From: a virus
Virus record (IMG/VR): IMGVR_UViG_3300006192_000027
Location: 1 to 28,331 of that record
Length of the DNA: 28,331 nucleotides
Direction: 5' to 3' (one strand)
Under the pieces are notes generated by a model. That model had not been told where the DNA came from. It did no database searches and was given only the letters and a program-made list of their open reading frames with translations. This document shows, one piece after another, positions 17,609 through 28,331 of this stretch. Position 1 is the stretch's first letter. Every line of letters starts with the position of its first letter. A program made the position numbers and the translations under genes.

Positions 17609-18010
17609 CTACTCCGCAAAAAGTTCCAGGACCAAAGGCGCGTCCTTGTCCCCGGCCAGGACTTGCTTGGCATACTGGGGGTTCAGCTTCTTCATGCGAA
17701 ACATAAGCAGAGTGTCGGAGTACTCCCGGATGAACCCGCACGGCTTGCCCTTGTGAAACACGGCCTTGCACGTCCCTTTCATGGCGCGCCGGTCGGCCTC
17801 CTTCTCCATGGCCTCGAGTAGGACACACTCCCCCACCTTCTGGGCCTCATCCCATTCGGTGCGGAAGTCTTCGTCTTTGGCCCGGAGCTCGTAGAGCCTG
17901 GACGTAGAAAAGGAAACCGCCTTGGCCGCCTTGGTGACGGTCCCGGTCTCGCGCAGGGCGTCCAGGAAGGCCGCCCTTTTTTTCTTTGTCCACTTTGTCC
18001 GGTTCGCCAT
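17609..18010 (-). CDS. terS: Terminase small subunit (133 aa)
   Basis: ATG at 18010, overlapping the end of the upstream membrane-protein gene; a GTG at 18013 is possible but less likely. Residues 5-45 form a helix-turn-helix (WTKKKRAAFLDALRETGTVT, then KAAKAVSFSTSRLYELRAKD), as in DNA-recognising small terminases. The rest is helical and would oligomerise (EWDEAQKVGECVLLEAMEKE). It lies directly before the large terminase. Confidence 0.82.
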   Translation of the reverse strand: MANRTKWTKKKRAAFLDALRETGTVTKAAKAVSFSTSRLYELRAKDEDFRTEWDEAQKVGECVLLEAMEKEADRRAMKGTCKAVFHKGKPCGFIREYSDTLLMFRMKKLNPQYAKQVLAGDKDAPLVLELFAE

Positions 18011-18222
18011 CACTTGAACATCCCGTAGGCGATCCTGATGACAACGCCGACCAACACAGTCACAGTGCCCCAGGCCATGCGCTCCAACGTTTTGATCTTC
18101 TCAGCGTGCGTCGCACACGACCGCGCCGTGTTGATTTGCTGAATGTCCCCCTGAACCGCCTTGACCCGCTCGTCGATGCGGATCAGCAATTCCCGGAACT
18201 CCTCATGAGACTCCGGGCTCAC
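18010..18222 (-). CDS. XhlA-like small membrane protein of lysis cassette (70 aa)
   Basis: A GTG start at 18222 overlaps the holin stop (GTGA) and is preferred over an upstream shadow frame. A soluble, charged coiled-coil N-terminus (EEFRELLIRIDERVKAVQGD) leads to one C-terminal membrane helix (MAWGTVTVLVGVVIRIAYGM). This arrangement resembles XhlA-type haemolysin/holin accessory proteins; a spanin is less likely because there is no N-terminal signal. It sits between holin and terminase, so it likely helps host lysis (inference). Confidence 0.65.
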   Translation of the reverse strand: MSPESHEEFRELLIRIDERVKAVQGDIQQINTARSCATHAEKIKTLERMAWGTVTVLVGVVIRIAYGMFK

Positions 18223-18623
18223 TTGGTCGCCCCTTTGAGCTTCTCGCCGGTCCGCAACGCGCCCATGCCGAGCATCCCGAAAATCAGTTCCCAGAGCACG
18301 CCGTCCAGAGTGGGCAATGCCGGAGCGTCCGGCATCCACACGGCCAAACCCCACGCCGCGAAGGGGCGCACGATGTACTGGTAGGCGAGGGCAGCCGCGC
18401 ACACCCAGCCGATGGCCGGACGCCAGCCAGCCACGAAGATGGACCGATGCGCCGCTTCGACCTTGTTGATCTCGCGTTGGTCCTTGGTCTCGGCAATGGT
18501 CGCGTCGAGCACTGCCTTGCGGTACTCGGCCTCGGCCTTGGCCCGCTGGTTGGGATCGGGGATCAGGTTGAGCACTTTGTCCACTGCGGACCCGATGATG
18601 GGCAGGAAAGAAAGCAAGCCCAT
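18219..18623 (-). CDS. Holin, 3TM family (134 aa)
   Basis: Matches the 3TM holin family (GTA_holin_3TM): an N-terminal helix (LLSFLPIIGSAVDKVLNLIP), a charged segment (QRAKAEAEYRKAVLDATIAE), the signature GWRPAIGWVCAAALAYQYIV at about 66-85 and a final hydrophobic helix LWELIFGMLGMGALRTGEK at about 110-128. It forms inner-membrane holes that trigger lysis. It starts 3 bases after the DUF5675 stop and overlaps the XhlA-like gene. Confidence 0.88.
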   Translation of the reverse strand: MGLLSFLPIIGSAVDKVLNLIPDPNQRAKAEAEYRKAVLDATIAETKDQREINKVEAAHRSIFVAGWRPAIGWVCAAALAYQYIVRPFAAWGLAVWMPDAPALPTLDGVLWELIFGMLGMGALRTGEKLKGATK

Positions 18624-18626
18624 GCC

Positions 18627-19034
18627 CTACACCCCGCTCACGTCAACGACGCGAAGCCGGAAGCTGTCGCCGCCCGCCTCGCTGAAAAAATCGTCGCACG
18701 TCTTGGACGAGGTCAGGACCGCGCGCTCACCGTTGAGCGTCCCGTACTGACGGCCCAGCATCACGCATCCATGGGTGTCCCGCCGGATGTTGCCCGGGTG
18801 GAAGAGAATATTGGTGCGGCCCGGAACGTCCACTATCTCGTAGACGTGGCCGAAGTGAGGCGAGTTAACCGGCTTGCACAGGTAGACCCCTTCGGGGATG
18901 CATGAAATATCCCTGGCGTTGCCGTTGTCGGGCGGCTCGAGGGTGACGCAAAAGGCCCTGCCGTCGAGGGACAGGACGCCGAAGGTCCCGACGTCGGACT
19001 TTTCCAGGCGGTGGATGGTGGCTTGTTCGATCAT
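18627..19034 (-). CDS. DUF5675 protein, endolysin candidate (135 aa)
   Basis: The ATG at 19034 is chosen because AAAGGAG lies nine bases upstream; a TTG at 19058 is in frame but inside the hairpin. The sequence has the DUF5675 pattern: FCVTLEPP, then SCIPEGVYLCKPVNSPHFGH, VPGRTNILFHPGN and a THGCVMLG motif. His79, His88 and Cys90 recall, with shorter spacing, the His and HGC motif of YkuD-type L,D-transpeptidases. No lysozyme, amidase or transglycosylase is found elsewhere in the window, and this gene holds the endolysin position before the holin. I therefore list it as a possible peptidoglycan-acting enzyme; the family assignment is firm, the activity a guess. Confidence 0.75.
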   Translation of the reverse strand: MIEQATIHRLEKSDVGTFGVLSLDGRAFCVTLEPPDNGNARDISCIPEGVYLCKPVNSPHFGHVYEIVDVPGRTNILFHPGNIRRDTHGCVMLGRQYGTLNGERAVLTSSKTCDDFFSEAGGDSFRLRVVDVSGV

Positions 19035-19039
19035 CGGGG

Positions 19040-19066
19040 TACGCTCCTTTGATTGCAAAGAGCGTA
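19040..19066 (-). promoter_or_regulatory. Hairpin sequestering the ribosome binding site of the first lysis gene
   Basis: On the minus strand TACGCTCTTTG and CAAAGGAGCGTA pair in an 11-bp stem with a single bulged G and a 4-base CAAT loop. The right arm contains the AAAGGAG ribosome binding site of the ATG at 19034. Folding would block translation of the first lysis gene. The left arm, CGCTCTTTG, also resembles a boxA antitermination element. Confidence 0.6.
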
Positions 19067-19118
19067 ACCCCGGGTTTTACGATTTCTGACGATCCTGGCT
19101 CAAACCGACACGATTCGG

Positions 19119-19148
19119 GTTAAATCCGGCATGATCCGGTATTGACAA
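19119..19148 (-). promoter_or_regulatory. Weak candidate late promoter
   Basis: TTGTCA (19148-19143) and TTTAAC (19124-19119) are spaced by 18 bases on the minus strand, in the only sizeable gap between replication genes and lysis genes. The -35 is good and the -10 poor, so an activator or antiterminator would be needed. No other promoter-like sequence stands out in 19067-19154. Confidence 0.3.
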
Positions 19149-19154
19149 GGTTTT

Positions 19155-19370
19155 TCAGGAGACCTTTTCCCCGGTCTTGCGCCGGTACTTCTCGGCTTGC
19201 TCCCTTGCCCATTCCCTGAGGTCGTCCGGGTGGGCTTTCCAGGGGCCTTTTTTGGTCCTCTTCCAGGCGGGTAACTCCTCTTGCGCGACCAGGTTGCCGA
19301 TGTTGTCCCGGCTCTCTCCGATAAGTTCGCAAATGCGGTCCGCCCCGCTGATGAGAAAATCGTCCCTCAC
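19155..19370 (-). CDS. Small winged-helix DNA-binding protein (71 aa)
   Basis: A GTG start at 19370 overlaps the upstream stop (GTGA) and follows AGGAGGGC. The sequence ISGADRICELIGESRDNIGN, then LVAQEELPAWKRTKKGPWKA and HPDDLREWAREQAEKY, is a MerR/excisionase-like winged helix of the kind used by small phage regulators and Nu1-like packaging proteins. It is the last gene before the lysis cassette, where lambda carries Q, so a late-gene regulator is possible (inference). Confidence 0.7.
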   Translation of the reverse strand: MRDDFLISGADRICELIGESRDNIGNLVAQEELPAWKRTKKGPWKAHPDDLREWAREQAEKYRRKTGEKVS

Positions 19371-19765
19371 GCGGCCCTCCTGTATCCGCCCTGCATGTAC
19401 CGCTCGGTCACGGCACGGGCCTCCGGGTATGAGTAGCAGACGAAGACGGCGAACCCCTGGGCCGCAAGCTGTCCATGCCACCACGTTTGGTTTTCGCTCG
19501 GCTTGTTGCCCTTGACCTTGAGTTCGATATACAGGCCATGGAACCCGCCGGACGCAACCGGGAGCATCATGTCGGGCACCCCGGACTTGACGCCCTCGGC
19601 CCGGAGCTTGACCGCGACGCGGATGTCCCGGTCCCCGCCGTTGGGGATGGCGTGGAAAAGGATGAGCTCGGGCCACTTGGCCAGCGTGTTCGGCTTCCCC
19701 GTCCAGTCGAAGAACCGTTTTTGCTCCTGGTGCTCGAAATCACGCGACTTACTCCGCTTCCTCAC
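19367..19765 (-). CDS. VRR-NUC domain nuclease (132 aa)
   Basis: A stand-alone VRR-NUC (PD-(D/E)XK) nuclease. Visible motifs are EHQEQKRFFDW near residue 11, FHAIPNGGDRDIRVAVKLRA then GVKSGVPDMML (active-site Asp), and GLYIELKVKGNKPSENQTWW (active-site E-x-K). Such phage nucleases are structure-specific and may resolve branched DNA before packaging. A GTG start at 19765, preceded by AGGAGGAC, overlaps the upstream stop. Confidence 0.88.
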   Translation of the reverse strand: MRKRSKSRDFEHQEQKRFFDWTGKPNTLAKWPELILFHAIPNGGDRDIRVAVKLRAEGVKSGVPDMMLPVASGGFHGLYIELKVKGNKPSENQTWWHGQLAAQGFAVFVCYSYPEARAVTERYMQGGYRRAA

Positions 19766-19962
19766 TTTGTCCTCCTGCTCTTACGCCACCAGTCCCGGAC
19801 CGTTTCCAGCCAGGGACAGGCCGTCATGTATTTCGTCTTCCTGGGCTTGTCCTCGGACTTGTCCCAGCACTGGCCGCCCCAACACTCCCCGTCGCCTGGG
19901 GCCAGGCACGGTAGAAGATGGCGCGCGCTCTTCACGTCGCACGGTTTTTCCGGCTTGCTCAT
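19762..19962 (-). CDS. Cys-rich small protein (66 aa)
   Basis: ATG at 19962 overlaps the replication gene stop (ATGA); the frame extends further upstream only as a shadow. Five Cys (about residues 8, 19, 27, 32 and 49) with GECWGGQCW suggest metal binding. The C-terminus is basic and Trp-rich (ETVRDWWRKSRRTK). No family recognised. It is translationally coupled on both sides to replication and nuclease genes, so a DNA-metabolism accessory role is likely. Confidence 0.6.
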   Translation of the reverse strand: MSKPEKPCDVKSARHLLPCLAPGDGECWGGQCWDKSEDKPRKTKYMTACPWLETVRDWWRKSRRTK

Positions 19963-20933
19963 GCCGCCGCCTTGTCTTGGCGTATCCCGTTGTAGTGTTT
20001 TATAAATTCTTCTTTGATGCCCTTCATGTCCCACTTGTTCGCCACGCCGATGCGCTCATAGCCTCCAAGGCGATAGATCACGACCACATGAGCCTTCTCG
20101 TCCGCTGCCTTGGCCGTCTCCGGCCCGAACCGCAACGCGGCCAGCACGGTATTCCATGCCGCTTCCGCTCCGCTGCCGCCCTGCTGGTCCTGCCCCGGGG
20201 CCTCGAGGAACGCTTCCCGGATGTTCTGGAACTTGGTCAGTCCGTTCGTCTTGGATGGTTGCCGGAGCTTGGCCAGGGAACGGGCGTTCTTTGACCAGAA
20301 CTCATCCTTGACCGCCCAGCGCATGGATTCCTTGATCTCTTCCAGCGTGAACCCGTCGAGCCGGATGAGCTTGTCCACGACGTCCACCGCTTCCACAAGC
20401 AGCTTGTCCGTGATCTTGGGGGCACCCTTGGGAAATTGCTTCAAGGCAAACTGCTGGAAGGCGTTCGCAAACTCGAAGAGTTGGCGCTTGTTTTTAAGAA
20501 TGTCTTTTCTTATGTCTTTTGTGGTCCCCTTTTTGGGGGACACCTTTGTCCCCTTTTTGGGGGACACTTTGTCCCCTATTTGGGGGGCACTTCGACCACT
20601 GTCCCCTTTTTGGGGGACACTTTGCCATTGGGAAAAGTCCTTGTTTATCCCGATGTTGAGTGGCTTGTTGTCCCCTTTTTGGGGGACAGCCAGGAGCACC
20701 TTTTTCCCGGCCAGCGATTTGACCAGCCCGGCCACTTTCTTCCGGGGAATCCCAGTATCTTCGGCAAGTTGGCTGTAGGCGATGTCGTCAGATTTTCGGT
20801 TGTACCCGTAGGTGCGCCGGAAGATCGCCCAAACGATTTGACCCTCCTGTCCGGGGAGTCGAAACCGCGCCAAGGCCTCCACGATGGAGTTGGCGATCTT
20901 GAGGTATCCGTCTTCAAGCTGGGGCGAGGTCAT
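19959..20933 (-). CDS. Lambda O-like replication initiator protein (324 aa)
   Basis: The N-terminal ~95 residues match the phage replication protein O domain: GYLKIANSIVEALARFRLPG, then IVWAIFRRTYGYNRKSDDIA and a winged helix YSQLAEDTGIPRKKVAGLVK. Residues about 82-140 are a Lys/Gly/Pro-rich linker encoded by the iteron-like repeats, with repeating PQKGD or PKKGT units. The C-terminal half is helical (VDKLIRLDGFTLEEIKESMR) and would recruit the helicase loader or helicase. No helicase or loader gene is visible nearby, so the host helicase is presumably loaded by this protein or by the uncharacterised neighbours. Confidence 0.85.
   Translation of the reverse strand: MTSPQLEDGYLKIANSIVEALARFRLPGQEGQIVWAIFRRTYGYNRKSDDIAYSQLAEDTGIPRKKVAGLVKSLAGKKVLLAVPQKGDNKPLNIGINKDFSQWQSVPQKGDSGRSAPQIGDKVSPKKGTKVSPKKGTTKDIRKDILKNKRQLFEFANAFQQFALKQFPKGAPKITDKLLVEAVDVVDKLIRLDGFTLEEIKESMRWAVKDEFWSKNARSLAKLRQPSKTNGLTKFQNIREAFLEAPGQDQQGGSGAEAAWNTVLAALRFGPETAKAADEKAHVVVIYRLGGYERIGVANKWDMKGIKEEFIKHYNGIRQDKAAA
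20500..20523. repeat. Tandem AT-rich 12-mers, candidate DNA-unwinding element
   Basis: Two tandem 12-mers (ATGTCTTTTCTT and ATGTCTTTTGTG, first nine bases identical) lie in the AT-rich stretch 20490-20523, immediately beside the iteron array and inside the replication gene. This is the arrangement of an origin unwinding element next to initiator sites. Confidence 0.5.
20524..20689. repeat. Five iteron-like repeats, candidate replication origin inside the O-like gene
   Basis: Five copies of a 20-bp element with core GTCCCCTTTTTGGGGGAC start at 20524, 20548, 20571 (degenerate), 20601 and 20670. Each is itself an inverted repeat (GTCCCC/GGGGAC). Steps are 24, 23, 30 and 69 bases. In lambda the O-protein iterons lie inside the O gene with an AT-rich stretch on the 3' side of the gene; here the same order is seen. 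Confidence 0.7.
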
Positions 20934-20936
20934 GGC

Positions 20937-21149
20937 CTAGGCCACCTCCATGGGCAGGGACGCCTGGCCCCTGACCTTTTTGAGCTCGGCCCGGAGCCGG
21001 GCAATTTCCTTCTGTGCTTCGCCCAAATCGTACTTGGCCACCTTGGCGTCCCTCACGGCCCACTCCTCGCGACGCAAGGCGGCATTGAGTTGGACTTCCA
21101 GGCGCTCGGCCTTCCGCTTGTAGGATGTGCGCGGCAATAATTCCTGCAT
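20937..21149 (-). CDS. Coiled-coil protein of the early operon (70 aa)
   Basis: Almost entirely a charged coiled coil (RLEVQLNAALRREEWAVRDA, then KEIARLRAELKKVRGQ). Not assigned to a family. It lies between the CII-like regulator and the replication initiator and may be a replication accessory or regulator. Its 3' end contains GGAGG upstream of the initiator ATG. Confidence 0.6.
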   Translation of the reverse strand: MQELLPRTSYKRKAERLEVQLNAALRREEWAVRDAKVAKYDLGEAQKEIARLRAELKKVRGQASLPMEVA

Positions 21150-21159
21150 GGCGTTCCCC

Positions 21160-21600
21160 CTATCCGGCTTTCTTCATGATCTTGAGCCGCCGGAAGGCGA
21201 CCAAGTTTTCCTCTAGTTCCTGAATGGCCAGGGCCGTGACCTCTTCCGCCCGCTCCAAGGTCGTATTCCCCACGTCGAGTAATACGCGCTGGCACCGGGC
21301 CACGGCCTGGATATCGTCGTTGAGCTCTTCGGCCAGGGTCGGCTTGTCCGGGCTCACCCCGTCCATGGGGGTGAGCCGGTAGTTCATGCGGACCGCTAGA
21401 TACCGGAGGGGCGAGACGTCGCCACATTGCTCCATCAGCGGGAGCACCATGTCCGCGCCCAGCTTCGCCCCTTCGTCGTAGGGGTTGAGCTCTCGCATCA
21501 TGGTCTTGTATGGACGGCGGCAGTTCTCCGCGAGGACTCGGACAGGACGCTTGTTGTTGAGCACCATGTCTTGCATGAGCTCGAGGAAGGAGTCGGCCAT
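21160..21600 (-). CDS. CII/CP76-family phage regulatory protein (146 aa)
   Basis: Residues 1-110 match the phage CP76/CII-like regulator family: LELMQDMVLNNKRPVRVLAE, CRRPYKTMMRELNPYDEGAK and LPLMEQCGDVSPLRYLAVRM, followed by a helical C-terminal half (AEELNDDIQAVARCQRVLLD). Members sit after cro and before replication genes and control the lysis-lysogeny decision. GGAGGAAATCTA precedes the ATG. Confidence 0.75.
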   Translation of the reverse strand: MADSFLELMQDMVLNNKRPVRVLAENCRRPYKTMMRELNPYDEGAKLGADMVLPLMEQCGDVSPLRYLAVRMNYRLTPMDGVSPDKPTLAEELNDDIQAVARCQRVLLDVGNTTLERAEEVTALAIQELEENLVAFRRLKIMKKAG

Positions 21601-21659
21601 TAGATTTCCTCCGCAAAAGGATAATTGCTTCTCAACCGTCGCGCGCGTGTCATGGGCTC

Positions 21660-21923
21660 ATGAATCTTCGAATGAGCATCCATTTCAGGCGCAAGCCGGA
21701 CGGGTCGCACCTGGCAACGGTCGTGATGGTAGCCGGGAACATGGTGCGCTTTTTCCGAACCGTGTTGGCCGAAGGTGTGGACCCGTATGCGGCCTACGGC
21801 GATGTCGCCGCGTCGGCGCTGGACTACCTGAACGCCAAGGGCGCGCCCGATCCCGGTCCGCCGCCCAAAGAAAAGCCAGCCGGGCGGCTGGTAATGCTCC
21901 GGGCGGCCCTGCCGATGGAGTAA
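21660..21923 (+). CDS. Small unknown protein antisense to the early minus operon (87 aa)
   Basis: This plus-strand frame has strong G/C bias at third codon positions and a plausible protein (VVMVAGNMVRFFRTVLAEGV then DPYAAYGDVAASALDYLN), while the opposite frame looks random. No family recognised. Start is uncertain: ATG at 21660 or 21672, neither with a good ribosome binding site. It points against the cro-to-cII operon and ends convergently with cro, 8 bases apart. Confidence 0.55.
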   Translation: MNLRMSIHFRRKPDGSHLATVVMVAGNMVRFFRTVLAEGVDPYAAYGDVAASALDYLNAKGAPDPGPPPKEKPAGRLVMLRAALPME

Positions 21924-21931
21924 ACGCGACA

Positions 21932-22162
21932 CTAGGCCGCGTCCTTCTTTAGCATGGCGGGGGGGCTCTGGTTGTCATAGAGCGCTGGGCAAAGCTCCGG
22001 GAGGGGGATGCCAAGAGAAAGGTGGTACCTAAGAGCGGCACCCTCGGGGATGTTGGCGGCATGGCAATGTTTGTAGACGGTGCCTCGCAGATACCCGGCC
22101 TTCTCGCCCATGGCCTCATAGGTCAACTCATTTTCGGTGCGGTATTTTTCGAGTGCATTCAT
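21932..22162 (-). CDS. Cro-like repressor (76 aa)
   Basis: Start at 22162 (MNALEKYRTENELTYEAMGE). A helix-turn-helix at about 14-35 (TYEAMGEKAGYLRGTVYKHC) is followed by SLGIPLPELCPALY. It is divergent from the repressor across an 81-bp operator region and is the first gene of the minus early operon, the classical cro position. There is no ribosome binding site; see the promoter entry for a possible leaderless transcript. Confidence 0.78.
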   Translation of the reverse strand: MNALEKYRTENELTYEAMGEKAGYLRGTVYKHCHAANIPEGAALRYHLSLGIPLPELCPALYDNQSPPAMLKKDAA

Positions 22163-22169
22163 GCCGCAA

Positions 22170-22198
22170 TGTTTCCACACGAATACACATTGTGTCAA
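22170..22198 (-). promoter_or_regulatory. Candidate PR promoter for cro, overlapping an operator
   Basis: Consensus TTGACA at 22198-22193; the best-spaced -10 (17 bp) is the weak GAAACA at 22175-22170. Transcription would start about one base before the cro ATG. The operator at 22171-22186 covers the spacer and -10. Confidence 0.45.
22171..22186. promoter_or_regulatory. Repressor operator O3 (between repressor and cro)
   Basis: GTTTCCACACGAATAC matches 12 of 16 positions of GTWTCCGTGCGGAWAC, the sequence found twice at the plus early promoter. It lies in the repressor-cro intergenic region. Confidence 0.55.
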
Positions 22199-22243
22199 CA
22201 ACTGCTCTACCGTGAAAACTACGAAGCGAGTACAGGAAGATAT

Positions 22244-23023
22244 ATGAGTAAAAGCAAGTGGCACGAACGCTCCTCTCTCGTTTGGGACAAGATATTGGAA
22301 TCCATGCGGGAACTTGAACGTTCAGGGGAATCAAAATCATCGATTGCGCGTCTCATGGGCGTGGGTCGCGCCACGGTCGGCAACTGGCTTGAGGGGGTAC
22401 GACGCGGTGAGCGGGTATCATTCCCCGACATGCTTCACTATGCGGAGACCCTCCGCATAGATTTGGCCGAATTGCTCGGATTCCAGCCGCAAAAGTCCTC
22501 ACGGGAAGTTTGCTTTGTCGCCCCAAAACGCTTGAGCGCAGCAAGCGCGGATACCCCCATCCCCGAGGACTACATTGCCGTCCCCCTGGCCGAGGGCGAA
22601 GTTGCCGCCGGACGGGGAATGGTCCCCCAGGATGAAATTCAATCTTGGGTCCTGGTCTGGAAAAACCACGACGCCGTGCGGTTCCGCACCAACCTCATCG
22701 CCGTGGAGATCGGCAAGGGGCAAAACTCCATGGTCCCCACCCTGCACCCCCAGGACATCCTCCTGGTGGACCGGGACGACTTCAAGGATCACTTCGCCCC
22801 GCCCGGCAACATATTTCTGGTTCGCGAGCCCGATAGCTCCGTGACAGTCAAGCGCGTCACCGTCAAACCGCGCAACGGCGACGTGATGATTACCTACTAC
22901 TCGGACAATGCCGTGGAACATCCGCCAATGAGCTGGTCCCTGTCCGAAGACTATGAGGGAGAGATTTCAAGGGCCGTGATTGGCCGTGTTGTATGGGCAT
23001 GGAGTGACATGAGCAGAAAATAG
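22244..23023 (+). CDS. CI/LexA-type repressor with S24 autoprotease domain (259 aa)
   Basis: ATG at 22244 follows AGGAAGA; the frame is open further upstream but that part overlaps the divergent cro. A helix-turn-helix lies at 28-50 (SKSSIARLMGVGRATVGNWL). The C-terminal half is an S24 peptidase: cleavage-type Ala-Gly at 122-123 (EGEVAAGRG), catalytic Ser162 (QNSMVPTLHPQDILLVDRDD) and Lys203 (VTVKRVT), 41 residues apart as in lambda CI and LexA relatives. RecA-stimulated self-cleavage after DNA damage would induce the prophage. It is co-oriented with the lipoprotein gene. Confidence 0.92.
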   Translation: MSKSKWHERSSLVWDKILESMRELERSGESKSSIARLMGVGRATVGNWLEGVRRGERVSFPDMLHYAETLRIDLAELLGFQPQKSSREVCFVAPKRLSAASADTPIPEDYIAVPLAEGEVAAGRGMVPQDEIQSWVLVWKNHDAVRFRTNLIAVEIGKGQNSMVPTLHPQDILLVDRDDFKDHFAPPGNIFLVREPDSSVTVKRVTVKPRNGDVMITYYSDNAVEHPPMSWSLSEDYEGEISRAVIGRVVWAWSDMSRK

Positions 23024-23036
23024 ACGGGAGGAAATC

Positions 23037-23678
23037 ATGAAGAGACTGTTTTGTTTTCTGGCCTTGGCCGCCATGGTGGCTCTGGCCGGTTGTGCCAGTA
23101 TTATATCAGACACCGAATCCACGACCTACGTGGAAACAATCCCCGAAAAATGCCGATGCACCTTGCACGGGCAGGATTTTCAGAGGGTGATCATCACGCC
23201 GGGTAGCATCAATCTACCGGCAGAGGCGGCCCCTCTCACCGTCATGTGTGAGGCCGACAATTACCAAACGACAAGTGTTGTGATGGACACTAAAATGGAC
23301 GGCTGGGTTTTCGGGAATATCCTTTTTGGTGGAGTCATTGGGGCCGTTGTCGATGCCGGGCGAGGTGCTGGCCAGAAGTACCCGCCGAAATTGACTGTCC
23401 AATTGGACCCTGTGTACTTCGCCTCGGAAATGAAACGTGACGACTACTATGCGATGCGGGTGAAAGTCGCCAAGGATCAGTTTGAGGCGGAAAGAAAGCG
23501 CATAGAGCGAAGGTATAAGCAGGACTCGCAACGGTCCGCCAGGGAACGAAAGCTAGACGCCTTGGACATAGAGGAAAGCGAAGTGCTAGTCCGACTGGAA
23601 ACAAATCGGATAAATTCTATCATAGGCACCCCGCCGCCACTGCAAGAATTGGCCGAACACACCACCGCCTCGCAATAG
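23037..23678 (+). CDS. Lipoprotein co-transcribed with the repressor (213 aa)
   Basis: A 19-residue lipoprotein signal ends in the lipobox LAGC (MKRLFCFLALAAMVALAGC). The mature part begins with a PEGA-like beta region (STTYVETIPEKCRCTLHG, then QRVIITPGSINLPAEAAPLT), a Gly-rich GNILFGGVIGAVVDAGRGAG and a charged helix at about 135-200. It starts 13 bases after the repressor stop with GGGAGGAAATC, and a terminator follows. It should thus be made in lysogens, as expected of a lysogenic conversion or superinfection-exclusion protein (inference). Lower GC than neighbours. Confidence 0.8.
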   Translation: MKRLFCFLALAAMVALAGCASIISDTESTTYVETIPEKCRCTLHGQDFQRVIITPGSINLPAEAAPLTVMCEADNYQTTSVVMDTKMDGWVFGNILFGGVIGAVVDAGRGAGQKYPPKLTVQLDPVYFASEMKRDDYYAMRVKVAKDQFEAERKRIERRYKQDSQRSARERKLDALDIEESEVLVRLETNRINSIIGTPPPLQELAEHTTASQ

Positions 23679-23696
23679 CTGGAGAAAATTGAATTG

Positions 23697-23723
23697 GCCC
23701 GCCTATCCCCGGCGGGCTTTTTT
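23697..23723 (+). terminator. Rho-independent terminator of the repressor-lipoprotein operon
   Basis: Perfect 7-bp stem GCCCGCC/GGCGGGC with a 7-base loop, followed by six T. It lies 18 bases after the lipoprotein stop and just before the operators of the plus early promoter. Confidence 0.9.
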
Positions 23724-23734
23724 GGGGCCCCGTT

Positions 23735-23750
23735 GTATCCGTGCGGAAAC
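23735..23750. promoter_or_regulatory. Repressor operator O1 at the plus early promoter
   Basis: GTATCCGTGCGGAAAC, a pseudo-palindrome (GTATCCG and CGGAAAC half sites), ends five bases before the -35 box. Confidence 0.65.
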
Positions 23751-23755
23751 TTTTG

Positions 23756-23784
23756 TTGACACACTGTTTCCGTGCGGATACATT
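23756..23784 (+). promoter_or_regulatory. PL-like early promoter for the plus-strand operon
   Basis: TTGACA (23756-23761), 17-base spacer and TACATT (23779-23784) form a good sigma70 promoter. Operator O2 covers the spacer and -10, O1 abuts the -35, so repressor binding would shut it off. It drives the recombination-gene arm, as PL does in lambda. Confidence 0.75.
23766..23781. promoter_or_regulatory. Repressor operator O2 at the plus early promoter
   Basis: GTTTCCGTGCGGATAC, overlapping the promoter spacer and -10. Its start is 31 bases from that of O1, three helical turns, which would place two repressor dimers on the same DNA face. Confidence 0.65.
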
Positions 23785-23975
23785 GTTTTCAACGACGCAC
23801 GGGAATCACCCCGGAAACGGCGCGGCCACGGCCCGCCAAGTAGGGGACACCGCCGAGCGAAGGGACCGCCGGAAGTACCGCAACAGCAAGGCCGCTTAGA
23901 TGAGGTCACGCCACGGGAGGGAAAGGCGGACGACAAGAGGAAGAACAGGGAAACGACAGGGAAAGAGAGACAAGC
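23785..23975 (+). other. 190-base early leader, purine-rich 3' half
   Basis: No translatable gene found. A frame ending at 23899 reads as an arginine-rich peptide (TAERRDRRKYRNSKAA) but lacks a start codon after the predicted transcription start. Bases about 23915-23972 are strongly purine-rich with two GACAGGGAAA-like units just before the next ATG. Confidence 0.4.
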
Positions 23976-24380
23976 ATGTTGGTCGATACCAAGAAACTCC
24001 ACACCGTCAAGACCGCCCCCCAGGGCCCGGCCTACTCCCCCAGCGACTACGAACGCGCCCCCGAGGTCTACGTCTTCCGCATGACCTGGGACGGCGAGGA
24101 CCGGGGCGACATGATGAACTATGCCGACGTGCTCGAGTTTGTCATGGAGCTCGATGGCGACGAAGACGCGACCGAAGAGGACGTCCGCCAGTGGCTCGAC
24201 TCGGGCCGGGCCATCCGCTTCGGGACCGATGAGGAGTGGTACAGGGTCGCCCCCCTCGAGTACCCGCAGAAGCTCGACTACTTCGGGGAACTGGTGCCCG
24301 AGGATGAGCCTTTCTACCCCGACCGCGAACGCGCCACCGGGCCAACCGGCAGCGGTTTTCCGTACACCTGGAAAATTTAG
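23976..24380 (+). CDS. Acidic hypothetical protein (134 aa)
   Basis: First good gene of the plus early operon, after a 190-base leader. Acidic and Tyr-rich (VFRMTWDGEDRGDMMNYADV, then ATEEDVRQWLDSGRAIRFGT), with no recognised family. A GGGAAAGAGAG tract serves as ribosome binding site. Early position suggests an accessory or host-takeover function, but nothing in the sequence proves this. Confidence 0.65.
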   Translation: MLVDTKKLHTVKTAPQGPAYSPSDYERAPEVYVFRMTWDGEDRGDMMNYADVLEFVMELDGDEDATEEDVRQWLDSGRAIRFGTDEEWYRVAPLEYPQKLDYFGELVPEDEPFYPDRERATGPTGSGFPYTWKI

Positions 24381-24408
24381 AGCAGACACCTCCATCACAC
24401 CTTGTAAC

Positions 24409-24430
24409 CCGGGGGGAGCGATCCCCCCGG
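24409..24430 (+). other. GC-rich hairpin before a small membrane-protein gene
   Basis: 8-bp stem CCGGGGGG/CCCCCCGG with loop AGCGAT, followed directly by the AGGAGG of the next gene and not by T, so not a standard terminator. Confidence 0.55.
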
Positions 24431-24446
24431 CCCAGGAGGAACCACC

Positions 24447-24677
24447 ATGGACGAAGCATTGACCATGCCCAGGAAGCGGACACGGATTTCCACCGGCGAA
24501 GCCCGTTGCCACGTCTGCGAGAAGAGCATCCCCCGCGGCACGGAGTTCATCACCCTTCACGGCTGGGACTGGTGCCAGGGATGCTTGAAGAAGCGCGAAG
24601 ACTGGAAGGCGTGTGGTGTCGTCCTGACCGCCGTCGCGGTCGCCCTCCTCCTGCTCATAAACAGCATATCGGGGTAG
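24447..24677 (+). CDS. Small zinc-ribbon membrane protein (76 aa)
   Basis: CHVC (about residues 21-24) and CQGC (about 43-46) form a two-CxxC zinc-ribbon-like motif, followed by one C-terminal membrane helix (VVLTAVAVALLLLINSI). AGGAGG lies nine bases before the ATG. Family unknown. Such small tail-anchored proteins in early operons often affect host functions (inference). Confidence 0.65.
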   Translation: MDEALTMPRKRTRISTGEARCHVCEKSIPRGTEFITLHGWDWCQGCLKKREDWKACGVVLTAVAVALLLLINSISG

Positions 24678-24682
24678 CAGCC

Positions 24683-24787
24683 ATGAACACGCACACCGAA
24701 TCCGACGACAGGGAATTTTTCGACGGACTCAGCGAAGAAGAACAGGCCGAGTACAGAGCCAGAACGAGAGGAAATCAAGATGTTTAA
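24683..24787 (+). CDS. Very small acidic protein (34 aa)
   Basis: MNTHTESDDREFFDGLSEEE is the start of a 34-residue acidic frame placed between two genes, overlapping the next ATG by 8 bases. It has a weak ribosome binding site. It fills an otherwise empty gap and may couple translation of the ATPase gene; function unknown. Confidence 0.45.
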   Translation: MNTHTESDDREFFDGLSEEEQAEYRARTRGNQDV

Positions 24788-25997
24788 GAGAGCAGAAAGG
24801 AAGAAGGCAAAGTTGCGCCTTGCCCTCTGCGGGCCGAGCGGAAGCGGAAAAACCTATTCCGCCTTGAAAATCGCCATGGGCATCGGCGGGCGTATAGCGC
24901 TCATTGACTCCGAGAACGGAAGCGGTGAGCTCTACGCGCACCTTTGCGAATACGATGTATGCCCCATCGGGCCGCCGTTCACCCCCTCAAAGTATGTCGA
25001 TGCCATCCACGAAGCCGAACGGCTCGGCTACGACATCATCATAATCGACAGCCTCACCCATGCGTGGGCAGGTTCCGGCGGCATCCTTGAGGAGGTGGAC
25101 AACCGAAAGGCCATGTCCAACAACCCGAATGGCTTTTCGGCCTGGCGGACCGTTACTCCCATGCACAACCAATTTGTGGACGCGATGCTCCAATCTCCGA
25201 CCCACGTTATCGCCACCATGCGCTCAAAAACCGCATACGAAATGCAGAAGGACCCGAGAACGGGCAAGTTGAAACCCGTAAAGATTGGCTTGCAGCCGGT
25301 GCAACGCGAGGGGCTCGACTTCGAGTTTACGGTCGTCCTGGACATCAGCCAAGAGAAGCATGTCGCGTCCGCCAGTAAAGACCGCACGTCCCTTTTCGAC
25401 GGCTCCCCGTTCATCCCGAACGAAGACACCGGCAAGACCCTCATTTCCTGGCTCGAGGACGGCATCGACCCGGACGAAGCCATGGTCAAAGAGGCTTCGG
25501 ACCTCATCAGCGCATGCACGACCGTCACCGGCCTCCGTGGCGTGTGGCAGTGCGAGGGCAAACGGTGGCAGAGCCGCCCCACGGCCTTCGCCCAAATCTC
25601 AAAGCTGGTGGCGGCCAAAGACGCCGAGCTCAAAGCCCAGGACCAGGGCCAGGACAACGGCGTCCCCGACATGCCCACGGAGTACGACCAGCAGCCCGGC
25701 CAGCCCCGCGACGAGTTCGAGCCCGGCGCGGGCGGCATGGGCGACCCCATGCCCAGCGAGGAGCGCGGCCAGGGGCAGAGCCAGCCCGCCGAGGCCGAGC
25801 CCCTGAGCGACGCCCAGCGCAAGGCCATCATGGCGTACTTTTCCAAGTGCGGCATGGCCTACACCAGCCACAAGGAAGACGTCTTGAACAACTTGGCCAA
25901 CTTCTTCCAGTTGGACCAACCCTTCACATCCATCAAGGACCTCACCAAGGACATGGCCTCTCAATTCATCGACACGATTAACCAGGAGGCCGCATAG
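24780..25997 (+). CDS. AAA/RecA-like recombination ATPase, Sak4-like (405 aa)
   Basis: Walker A GPSGSGKT at 18-25 and Walker B DIIIIDS at about 85-91, with ALIDSENGSG at 39-48, place it in the phage AAA_24/Sak4-like RecA-core family (residues 1-230). Such proteins promote single-strand annealing together with SSB, which is encoded next. A Pro/Gln/Gly-rich linker (about 285-340) leads to a C-terminal helical domain (SDAQRKAIMAYFSKCGMAYT then SHKEDVLNNLANFF) resembling the tails of phage recombination proteins. GAGAGGAAATC lies upstream. Confidence 0.82.
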   Translation: MFKRAERKKAKLRLALCGPSGSGKTYSALKIAMGIGGRIALIDSENGSGELYAHLCEYDVCPIGPPFTPSKYVDAIHEAERLGYDIIIIDSLTHAWAGSGGILEEVDNRKAMSNNPNGFSAWRTVTPMHNQFVDAMLQSPTHVIATMRSKTAYEMQKDPRTGKLKPVKIGLQPVQREGLDFEFTVVLDISQEKHVASASKDRTSLFDGSPFIPNEDTGKTLISWLEDGIDPDEAMVKEASDLISACTTVTGLRGVWQCEGKRWQSRPTAFAQISKLVAAKDAELKAQDQGQDNGVPDMPTEYDQQPGQPRDEFEPGAGGMGDPMPSEERGQGQSQPAEAEPLSDAQRKAIMAYFSKCGMAYTSHKEDVLNNLANFFQLDQPFTSIKDLTKDMASQFIDTINQEAA

Positions 25998-25999
25998 CC

Positions 26000-26545
26000 A
26001 TGGCCGGAAGCATGAACAAAGTAATCGTGATCGGTCGCGTGGGCCAGGACCCGAAACTCTCTTACACGCCCAGCGGCCAGGCTGTGGCCAACCTCTCCGT
26101 GGCCACGGACGAAGGATACCGCGACCGGCAGACCGGCCAAAAGGTCGAGCGCACCGAATGGCACCGCGTGGTGGCATGGCGGCAACAGGCCGAGTTCATC
26201 GGCAACTACATCACCAAGGGCCGCTTGGTCTTGGTCGAAGGCAAGCTCCAAACCCGCAAATGGCAGGGGCAGGATGGCCAGGACCGATACACCACGGAGA
26301 TCGTTGCCGACAACGTGCAGGGCCTGGACCGGGCCCCGGACCACGGCCAGGGCGGCCAGTACCAGCAACAGGGCGGCCAGTACCAGCAACAGGGCGGCCA
26401 GTACCAGCAACAGGGCGGCCAGTACCGGCAGCCCCAGCAGCATCAGCAGCATCAGCCGTCCCAGCGCCAGCCCCAGCAGCCCGAAGAAGACTTGGGCCCC
26501 GCCTTCCCGTCCGAAGCCAGCGGCATGGATGACGTGCCCTTTTAA
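26000..26545 (+). CDS. ssb: Single-stranded DNA-binding protein with repeated Gln-rich tail (181 aa)
   Basis: Residues 5-113 are a bacterial-type SSB OB fold (NKVIVIGRVGQDPKLSYTPS, EWHRVVAWRQQAEF, then KGRLVLVEGKLQTRKWQ). A disordered tail of four QGGQYQQ units and Gln/His/Pro-rich sequence ends in the acidic MDDVPF tip that docks partner proteins. Start may be ATG 26000 or 26012. It lies two bases after the recombinase gene and probably acts with it. Confidence 0.95.
   Translation: MAGSMNKVIVIGRVGQDPKLSYTPSGQAVANLSVATDEGYRDRQTGQKVERTEWHRVVAWRQQAEFIGNYITKGRLVLVEGKLQTRKWQGQDGQDRYTTEIVADNVQGLDRAPDHGQGGQYQQQGGQYQQQGGQYQQQGGQYRQPQQHQQHQPSQRQPQQPEEDLGPAFPSEASGMDDVPF
26348..26431 (+). repeat. Four tandem 21-bp repeats in the SSB tail
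   Basis: Four in-frame 21-bp units (CAGGGCGGCCAGTACCAGCA plus A; starts 26348, 26369, 26390, 26411). The first three are identical, the last differs near its end. They encode QGGQYQQ. Confidence 0.9.
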
Positions 26546-26562
26546 AATCTCAGGAGGAAACC

Positions 26563-27444
26563 ATGCAGGATTTGAAACTCAAGACCCAGTTACCCGCCAT
26601 CAGCTTCGACTTTGACGGCTTGAAGAAGTGGGCCGAAGACATCGCCGCCCAATATACCGACGTTGTTGTCCGCGAGGAAGACGTCGCCGCCATCAAGAAC
26701 GAAATGGCCGCGCTCAACAAGGTCAAAGACGGCCTGAACAAGGCCCGGATCGCCACTAAGAAGAAGGTGTCCGAGCCCATCGCGGCCTTTGAATCCCAGG
26801 TCAAGAAATTGGTCGAGATCATCGACAACGCCCGGATTGGCCTGGACGAACAGGTCAAGGCGCACGAACAGGCCCAGCGCGACGAAAAGCGCAAAGAGGT
26901 CGAGTTCATGATCGAGGAGCTCAAGAATGAGCACGATGTCCCCGGTATCGACATCCCTTTTGAGGAGTCGTGGACCAACAAGTCCACAGCCATGAAGTCC
27001 GTGAAAGCAGCCGTCGAAGCCCGCATCCTGGAACACATGCGCCGGGAGAAGGAGCGCGCCCAGCTTGAACAAGCCAGAAAGGACCGGGCCGTTGCAATCG
27101 AGCAGAACTGCAAGGCCCTCGAAGGCGATTTCGGCGTCACCATGCAGCCCTCCGAGTTCCTGGGCTTGCAGGACATCGACATCCCCCTCGCGGACGTCAC
27201 CGAACGGATGCGCGCGGCTTTCCAGAAGAAGGCCGAGGCCGCACCCGCCGCCCGGCCTGAACCCCGGCGCGCGCCCGTGGCCGCCACCCGCCCCAGCGTC
27301 CCGGCCACGCCCCCCGGCCTCAACTCCATGACCGTGACCATTGAGTACCGCAGCGGCCAGGCCAACGCCGTCCGCGCCACGCTCAACGGACTCCGCGGCA
27401 TGGGCGTCACCGTCCACGTCCACGACGCCCAGGAGGCGGCGTAG
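26563..27444 (+). CDS. DUF1351 family protein (293 aa)
   Basis: The first ~200 residues match DUF1351: LPAISFDFDGLKKWAEDIAA, a YTDVVVREEDVAAIKNEMAA segment, then LNKVKDGLNKARIATKKKVS and a long coiled coil. A Pro/Ala-rich linker (about 228-255) precedes a small C-terminal beta-alpha domain (MTVTIEYRSGQANAVRATLN then GLRGMGVTVHVHD). DUF1351 genes sit beside recombination genes in many prophages; function unknown. CTCAGGAGG precedes the ATG. Confidence 0.8.
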   Translation: MQDLKLKTQLPAISFDFDGLKKWAEDIAAQYTDVVVREEDVAAIKNEMAALNKVKDGLNKARIATKKKVSEPIAAFESQVKKLVEIIDNARIGLDEQVKAHEQAQRDEKRKEVEFMIEELKNEHDVPGIDIPFEESWTNKSTAMKSVKAAVEARILEHMRREKERAQLEQARKDRAVAIEQNCKALEGDFGVTMQPSEFLGLQDIDIPLADVTERMRAAFQKKAEAAPAARPEPRRAPVAATRPSVPATPPGLNSMTVTIEYRSGQANAVRATLNGLRGMGVTVHVHDAQEAA

Positions 27445-27476
27445 CGCGGTCAAGATATCCTCTCAACCCTGTACCA

Positions 27477-27518
27477 GCGGGCGGGGGCCCAAGGGATTCC
27501 CTGCCCTTCCCCGCCCGC
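27477..27518 (+). other. Strong GC-rich hairpin after the DUF1351 gene
   Basis: A 10-bp stem GCGGGCGGGG/CCCCGCCCGC encloses a 22-base loop that holds a smaller GGGATTCCC stem. No T run follows, so it may be an attenuator, processing site or mRNA stabiliser. Confidence 0.55.
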
Positions 27519-27541
27519 GCAATCACACGGAAGGAAACGCA

Positions 27542-28087
27542 ATGCAAAACCCTGATTTTTACATCCGCAACGCGGAAACCATGGCCCCGGCAATGCATCG
27601 GCTCATATGCAACCAACTCCGTTTCTGGCCCTACCAGCGGGAAGTGCTCCTCTTCATGGAACTGGAAGACACCCTTGAGGACAATGCCAGCCTGGAAGAA
27701 CAGGTCGAGCTCCTCACCGTCGAGCGCAACAATCTCCGCTCCCGTCTGTCCGCCTTCGGCGTGGAAGACGGCCTCCTCACCCTGGACCAGATAGACGACG
27801 GCGATTGCCTCCGCGAGATCAACGATAGGTTGCAGGAGATGGCGCACGACATCCACAAGCGCGGCCACGTGGATAAGCCCCGCAAGATCGTCGCCACGGT
27901 CATCGCGGAACCCGGCAAGGAATCCGCCCGCGTGGATATCGACTACGAAGTCGAGCTCAAGAAGCCCAAGAGCGCCGGGTCCGGCGTCGGCTACCTGGAC
28001 GCCCGGGGCAACCTGGTCCCGGCCTATAGTGACGCCGAGCAATACATGCTCCCGGTCAACAGCAGAGAGAACAAGGCCGCGGCCTAG
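27542..28087 (+). CDS. Conserved phage protein of unknown function (181 aa)
   Basis: ATG at 27542 follows GGAAGGAAAC; a longer frame upstream is a shadow. The N-terminal half has PAMHRLICNQLRFWPYQREV then a coiled coil (EDNASLEEQVELLTVERNNL). The C-terminal half reads IVATVIAEPGKESARVDIDY then EVELKKPKS and GVGYLDARGNLVPAYS, a small beta-rich end. I do not recognise the family. It continues the recombination operon. Confidence 0.7.
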   Translation: MQNPDFYIRNAETMAPAMHRLICNQLRFWPYQREVLLFMELEDTLEDNASLEEQVELLTVERNNLRSRLSAFGVEDGLLTLDQIDDGDCLREINDRLQEMAHDIHKRGHVDKPRKIVATVIAEPGKESARVDIDYEVELKKPKSAGSGVGYLDARGNLVPAYSDAEQYMLPVNSRENKAAA

Positions 28088-28093
28088 ATATTT

Positions 28094-28201
28094 CGGGGAT
28101 GGTCCCCGGACTGCCGACAGCACACCGGCAGAAGGGACGAAAGGGGCCGGGCCGCGCGAAGCGGACGGCAACGATTGAGAGCCTCTTACCCCGGCCCCTT
28201 T
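28094..28201 (+). other. Three successive hairpins in an intergenic region
   Basis: Stems CGGGGA/TCCCCG (28094-28108), CTGCCG/CGGCAG (28111-28131) and a 12-bp AAAGGGGCCGGG/CCCGGCCCCTTT (28140-28201) with an inner CCGC/GCGG hairpin. Only weak T content follows. The 150 bases contain no gene and may be a terminator-like attenuator or a structured small RNA. Confidence 0.5.
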
Positions 28202-28239
28202 CAAACGAAGAATTGATAGTAGTCTTGGAGGAAATGTGA

Positions 28240-28331
28240 ATGGCTTGGCTCTATGTTCCGGGAGTGGAATGCTCGAAGCAGGAATCCACCTTGTCTTGCC
28301 CGAACAATATCGAACTGTATGTGCTGTCGAA
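28240..28331 (+). CDS. Start of a further early phage gene, cut by the window edge
   Basis: ATG at 28240 with GGAGG upstream, open to the window end (30 codons). MAWLYVPGVECSKQ resembles the N-terminus of prophage proteins that begin MAWLYVPG, which are mostly annotated as hypothetical or methyltransferase-associated. The assignment is from memory of this start only. Confidence 0.6.
   Translation, partial: MAWLYVPGVECSKQESTLSCPNNIELYVLS

Follow-up and report, generated by a model that had tools for sequence, protein, structure and literature searches.

The O-like initiator gene and its surroundings

The window, i.e., the whole stretch of DNA that was analyzed, is a linear viral contig of 28,331 bases and possibly a fragment. 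Its minus strand carries a gene for an O-like replication initiator. The gene and the parts of its protein product are located as follows:

19959..20933, minus strand: O-like replication initiator gene, 324 aa (PF04492, phrog_277, similarity to λ O)
20625..20921, minus strand: winged-helix DNA-binding domain, residues 5-103 (PF04492 match to residues 5-103, AlphaFold2 model)
20706..20744, minus strand: recognition helix, residues 64-76, containing K66, which co-varies with half-site base -5
20508..20618, minus strand: linker of about residues 106-142, predicted to be disordered; its codons hold iterons 2-5 and the AT boxes
20199..20486, minus strand: C-terminal domain, about residues 150-245 (phrog_2514 match; relatives L006, L011 and L012)

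The protein matched the Pfam family PF04492 (Phage_rep_O, bacteriophage replication protein O) with an E-value of 1.6e-21 (77.1 bits, cut-off 28.7) and phrog_277 ('replication initiation O-like') with an E-value of 3.4e-37. It was 30% identical to λ O over residues 6-224. These matches bore out the first-pass annotation, which had placed a set of repeats inside an O-like initiator gene. The AlphaFold2 model of the protein had a mean pLDDT of 59.9 overall, with values near 90 for the helices of the DNA-binding domain. Within this domain, the model showed helices at residues 28-42, 53-60, and 64-76 and wing strands at residues 80-82 and 92-96. The best Foldseek matches of the model were MarR-type winged helices, which were generic and had weak E-values, and a sequence search of the PDB did not find a solved O structure. 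Linker residues 108-142 had pLDDT values below 50 and were taken as disordered.

Residues 136-225 were matched by phrog_2514 (DnaD-like helicase loader), and the C-terminal domain is probably the part that contacts the replisome. Three other sequences, L006 (5325-5624), L011, and L012, share only the C-terminal half with the O-like protein of the window (47-52% identity over about 100 residues). L006 has a different N-terminal domain, and iterons were not found in it. It seems that the DNA-binding part and its sites are exchanged as a module. L006 was one of the two first matches; since it shares the C-terminal domain only and lacks an iteron array, it was left out of the analysis of the DNA-binding domain.

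The replication and recombination genes at positions 18000-28331 comprise O, SSB, a Sak4-like AAA protein, a DUF1351 protein, and a VRR-NUC nuclease. Searches of this part of the window identified no helicase, loader, or primase, and no gene for P, DnaC, or DnaB was found next to O in this possibly fragmentary record. Upstream of O, positions 20937-21600 harbor a 70-aa open reading frame and a CII-like gene (21160-21600), which resembles the lambdoid cII-O order. The part of the SSB gene for the C-terminus (26348-26430) contains four 21-bp tandem copies, which are 98% alike and encode QGGQYQQ repeats.

Palindromic repeats in the O-like gene and its relatives

The repeat unit, read in gene direction (minus strand), is GTCCCCCAAAAAGGGGAC. 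It consists of the arms GTCCCC and GGGGAC, 6 bases each, around CAAAAA. The copies are:

20670..20687, minus strand: iteron 1, the 'wing iteron' GTCCCCCAAAAAGGGGAC, exact; encodes VPQKGD, residues 83-88, in the loop between the wing strands
20601..20618, minus strand: iteron 2, exact 18-mer, frame 0 (VPQKGD)
20571..20588, minus strand: iteron 3, degenerate GCCCCCCAAATAGGGGAC, 16/18 bases, frame 0 (APQIGD)
20548..20565, minus strand: iteron 4, exact 18-mer, frame 2 (SPKKGT)
20524..20541, minus strand: iteron 5, exact 18-mer, frame 2 (SPKKGT)

Five copies had been described before as a single array. The number was correct, with four copies exact and one degenerate, but the copy at 20670 lies apart: in gene direction the spacings are 69, 30, 23, and 24 bp, and iteron 1 sits 69 bp upstream of the other four. 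Residues 106-137, in the linker that joins the DNA-binding domain to the C-terminal one, are encoded by iterons 2-5, while iteron 1 lies within the DNA-binding domain.

Four exact palindromes were observed, compared to 0.007 expected in Markov sequence, and no palindromic arm of any kind occurred more than twice in any of 100 Markov replicates. None of 2000 synonymous recodings of the O gene (protein fixed, phage-wide codon usage) contained any 18-mer four times. Taken singly, the iteron copies reached P values of 0.0009 to 0.003 by synonymous resampling with phage-wide usage. A further sequence, GTCCCCGCCGTTGGGGAT at 19631-19648 in the VRR-NUC gene, has one mismatch to the iteron arms; loose matches of this kind are expected by chance. 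An exact 18-mer scan of viral contigs gave a single match, in L008, which lies in unrelated DNA and was taken as chance. GC skew, which had been suggested as a check, gave no origin signal.

Iteron 3 is degenerate, and the contig is linear, may be incomplete, and shows no helicase or loader, so the sequence could come from the remnant of a defective prophage whose origin has decayed or lost its activity. This is very unlikely, as gene O has an uninterrupted reading frame, only one of the five iterons deviates from the exact sequence, and structural, lysis, and regulatory genes are present.

For comparison, O-like genes were collected from named phages and viral contigs and dereplicated to 151. 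The Trp residue that closes the DNA-binding domain is conserved in 150 of them. In 93 of the 151 genes, the region for the domain and the linker contained a significant palindromic family when codon-shuffled genes were used as the null. With a looser criterion of at least three sites downstream of the Trp codon, 113 genes, some of them possibly false calls, were retained for the family tests. The arms vary between phages (GTCCCC, TTATCA, TTACCC, TTGCCA, TCATCT, GTTCCC) and agree within one gene.

The first-pass annotation had also pointed out that the repeats encode PQKGD/PKKGT units, and this was confirmed: the identical 18-mer is read as VPQKGD in frame 0 and as SPKKGT in frame 2. One DNA sequence that yields different peptides in two frames argues that the conserved unit is the DNA. 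In a coding repeat, the likeness of the DNA would derive from peptide duplication in a low-complexity protein linker. The linker is indeed predicted to be disordered and the repeats encode similar peptides, but such an origin of the repeats is already contradicted by the two-frame reading, by palindromes and arm identity that exceed the synonymous nulls, and by the main iteron copies, which occupy at least two frames in 97 of the 113 genes. It has next to no probability left. As judged from sequence, the repeats are DNA repeats rather than protein repeats, and the two-frame reading is the most telling point.

The AT-rich segment downstream of the iterons

In gene direction, the last iteron is followed by an AT-rich segment with these features:

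20511..20522, minus strand: AT box 1 ACAAAAGACATA (gene direction), one base past the last iteron
20499..20510, minus strand: AT box 2 AGAAAAGACATT, a 12-mer in tandem to AT box 1
20488..20523, no strand assigned: putative unwinding element, 75% A+T, the most AT-rich 36-mer of the window

The two AT-rich 12-mers that had been reported before are present, and the most AT-rich 36-mer of the window contains both. They are on the same side as in the λ ori, as had also been stated: in both, the iterons are followed by the AT segment in gene direction. The eleven bases CACAAAAGACA past the last iteron are common to the window, λ, P22, HK446, and others. A ACAAAAGA box was found within 60 nt past the last iteron in 75 of the 113 O genes, usually 1-2 bases after it and often in at least two copies; it was absent from 24 kb of coding sequence upstream in these genes. 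Across the O-gene family, the box was read in all three frames (95, 33, and 9 occurrences) and encoded, for example, TKD in λ and HKR in mEpX1, which argues that it is a DNA element too. We infer that the ACAAAAGA box either belongs to the unwinding segment or is contacted by O in single-stranded form. In support of this, O was reported to bind single-stranded DNA of the origin AT region (PMC7466680). The literature searched did not contain a description of the box; older lambdoid-origin papers, which lie outside it, may show one.

The arrangement of iterons and AT-rich segment also bears on the possibility that the palindromes are an autoregulatory operator, on which O blocks its own transcription or translation while replication starts elsewhere. 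Palindromic dimer sites inside the gene would permit autoregulation, and the wing iteron is set apart from the AT-rich segment. However, the iterons adjoin the AT-richest segment and a conserved AT box with λ polarity, and the homologous array of λ is the origin (PMC5043065). We regard an operator as unlikely for the locus; possibly the wing iteron alone has such an added role.

An iteron within the codons of the wing

Iteron 1 lies inside the wing-loop codons, so that the predicted binding site of the DNA-binding domain encodes a portion of this same domain. Wing iterons were sought in the 113 genes with arms that were derived solely from sites downstream of the Trp codon, and matches to these arms were then looked for upstream. 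A gene's own arms were matched upstream at 10 or more of 12 bases in 48 of the 113 genes, compared to 2.6% with the arms of other, dissimilar genes. The dyad center of the wing iteron was located exactly -51 nt from the Trp codon in 37 genes, and a second cluster was seen at -70 to -73. Iteron 1 of the window matched its own arms at 12/12 bases and has its dyad center at -51 nt from the Trp-103 codon. With synonymous resampling from each gene's own codons, the wing match had P <0.05 in 36 of the 48 genes. For the wing site of the window alone, the P value was 0.0024 with phage-wide codon usage and 0.087, which is not striking, with the gene's own usage. About half of the wing-iteron genes retain a distance of 68-69 bp between wing iteron and array, which corresponds to some 6.5 helical turns.

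A wing iteron was absent from all 14 enterobacterial phages in which an array was called. It was also not seen in five more named phages (with Halomonas, Gram-positive, and Paraburkholderia hosts), so that a cultured example was not found. On the tree of the DNA-binding domain, which is poorly resolved, the trait would have changed at least five times, and the branch of enterobacterial phages on this tree consisted mostly of genes without a wing iteron. The wing iteron may serve the origin from outside the main array, comparable to the extra iterons of Stx phages, or it may be an autoregulatory site.

Co-variation of residue 66 with a half-site base

We compared protein columns with half-site bases across the O genes by mutual information. 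When residues encoded by the wing iteron were set aside, the leading pair, picked from several hundred comparisons, was residue 66 at the start of the recognition helix and half-site base -5. Of 51 genes with His, 50 had C; Lys was combined with C in 16 of 17 genes and Asn with T in 16 of 18, and Arg was also found with C. Altogether 85 of the 89 informative genes agreed with this code, and the window, with Lys at residue 66 and C at base -5, is in line with it. λ is an exception in the register used. An Asn facing A, and a His or Lys facing G on the opposite strand, are chemically sensible.

The association dropped to p = 0.067 among 17 representatives with less than 50% identity. Supported branches of the tree provided only four phylogenetically independent pairs, three of which went the same way on average; on the best tree, which is poorly supported, 10 of 12 disjoint pairs agreed and none opposed. 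Two phages outside the sample were inspected by eye: the code holds for Paraburkholderia phage IPK (Asn, T) but not for Caldibacillus phage CBP1 (Arg, G). The co-variation supports a direct binding of the palindromes by O, as predicted from the sequences.

The palindromes could alternatively act as hairpins of the O mRNA, by which translation is slowed or the transcript is stabilized or attenuated. Folding of the transcript was indeed stronger than that of shuffled sequences (z -5.5), and the hairpin of a single unit has -11.7 kcal/mol. In orthologs, however, the units have AU-rich arms and form weak hairpins (-4.0 to -4.7 kcal/mol, L117 and P22 types), while position, spacing, and arm identity are still kept, and the co-variation with residue 66 is unexpected for a role at the RNA level. 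We consider RNA hairpins as the function of the repeats to be extremely improbable.

Predicted function of the locus

The region is very likely a λ-type phage replication origin that is embedded in its own initiator gene, in a bipartite variant. This reading of the sequence is well supported by homology, by the position and polarity of the elements, by repeats in more than one frame, by the conserved AT box, and by the co-variation of the recognition helix. The overlap of DNA and protein constraints proposed in the first-pass annotation is likewise well supported by the multi-frame repeats, the AT box, and the co-variation. Dimers of the O-like protein would bind to the palindromic iterons, with one recognition helix per half-site. 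The resulting nucleoprotein complex would strain and melt the adjoining AT-rich segment with its ACAAAAGA boxes. The C-terminal half of O, which resembles DnaD-like loaders, would then bring in the replicative helicase, so that the site would serve as the start of replication.

Beyond the window, we think it probable that a large, so far undescribed branch of λ-type initiators has a bipartite origin, with one or two palindromes for initiator binding held at constant positions inside the wing codons, -51 (and about -70 to -73) nt from the conserved Trp codon. In this branch, the site would dictate part of the domain that reads it, and site and residue 66 would co-evolve under a simple code. What is new here is the predicted initiator site inside wing codons, which is widespread in uncultivated phages. 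Such a wing iteron represents an unusual coding overlap, because the predicted binding site lies within the codons of the domain that binds it. The results widen the range of the λ origin plan, which now takes in a divergent phage as well as many uncultivated phages, and they offer a route to the origins of such phages by sequence only, via Trp-anchored palindromes and then the ACAAAAGA box. The specificity of O for its iterons becomes directly testable at one residue and one base pair.

Comparison with known replication origins

Iteron plasmids of the Rep type likewise have an array of initiator sites next to an AT-rich segment. In these plasmids, monomers bind to iterons that are mostly direct repeats (PMC5043065). 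A Rep-type plasmid origin, with direct, non-palindromic repeats outside coding sequence, was rejected for the window, whose units are inverted repeats within a gene. A PICI-type origin, in which two iteron sets flank an AT-rich segment 3' of rep (PMC6092414), was also rejected, as all copies of the window are on one side and in the gene.

Not all O-like genes contain an array. The O-like genes of phages of Psychrobacillus, Halomonas, Lysinibacillus, and Virgibacillus (L030, L338, L339, and L340) had no significant palindromic array, which argues that their origins are elsewhere or of another type. In a Desulfohalobiaceae contig (L007, 858-1000), GGTAGTGCAAACAA repeats with poor palindrome scores are present at the iteron place of the O gene.

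Palindromic iterons with A-rich centers are found at the same place within the O genes of λ, P22, phi80, and others. The window shares the λ-type iteron format, an inverted repeat of 17-20 bp whose center is rich in A/T. The λ ori in gene O (NC_001416, iterons 39034-39118) resembles the window in its inverted-repeat iterons with an A-tract center, their spacing of 20-24 bp, and their reading in several frames, in this case three. The λ iteron TCCCTCAAAACGAGGGA is an inverted repeat around the A-tract and has the same TCCC start as the unit of the window. According to a review, the inverted repeats of the λ iterons are almost perfect; O dimers bind to them, and the adjoining AT-rich region is opened (PMC5043065). 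The earlier statement that the repeats differ from λ iterons in being nearly palindromic was therefore wrong. Polarity is also shared, with iterons followed in gene direction by an AT-rich segment that starts with CACAAAAGACA. In addition, λ O parallels residues 99-145 of the window protein, with iteron-encoded PQ.GD / SPKKG units and then TKD. In λ, O is followed by gene P, which is not the case in the window. The four iterons of λ are contiguous, and a wing iteron is lacking (the best match upstream has 6/12 bases), whereas the wing iteron of the window stands separate. This separate iteron inside the wing-coding segment is, at the level of the sequences compared, the real difference of the window from λ.

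The O proteins of λ and of Stx phages bind such iterons (PMC7466680). Stx phages (P27, 933W) have six iterons, and the extra copies upstream of the core four bind O weakly, yet plasmid replication needs them (PMC7466680). Like the extra iteron of the window, these copies are upstream of the core, but they continue the array in the linker and do not lie in the wing-coding segment (phage 32 is a 933W-like example). A very similar unit, ATCCCCGAAAACGGGGAT, is present in the O gene of Salmonella phage SPN3UB (L034, 792-1706). It occurs there as seven iterons in two blocks, 39 bp apart from start to start at the junction, and is read in all three frames. Unlike in the window, all SPN3UB iterons lie downstream of the conserved Trp codon, without a wing copy.

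The arrangement of the window was found again in O genes of uncultivated phages. L261, the best match to the O-like protein of the window (38% identity over 225 aa), as well as L222, L251, L257, L117, and L042 have one or two wing iterons with their own arms. These arms (TTGACC, TTATCA, TTGCCA, and others) are unlike those of the window, and several of the uncultivated phages with wing iterons harbor a DnaB-type helicase or an AAA+ protein beside O, in contrast to the window. In these genes, the inner wing iteron is centered at -51 nt from the Trp codon, as in the window.
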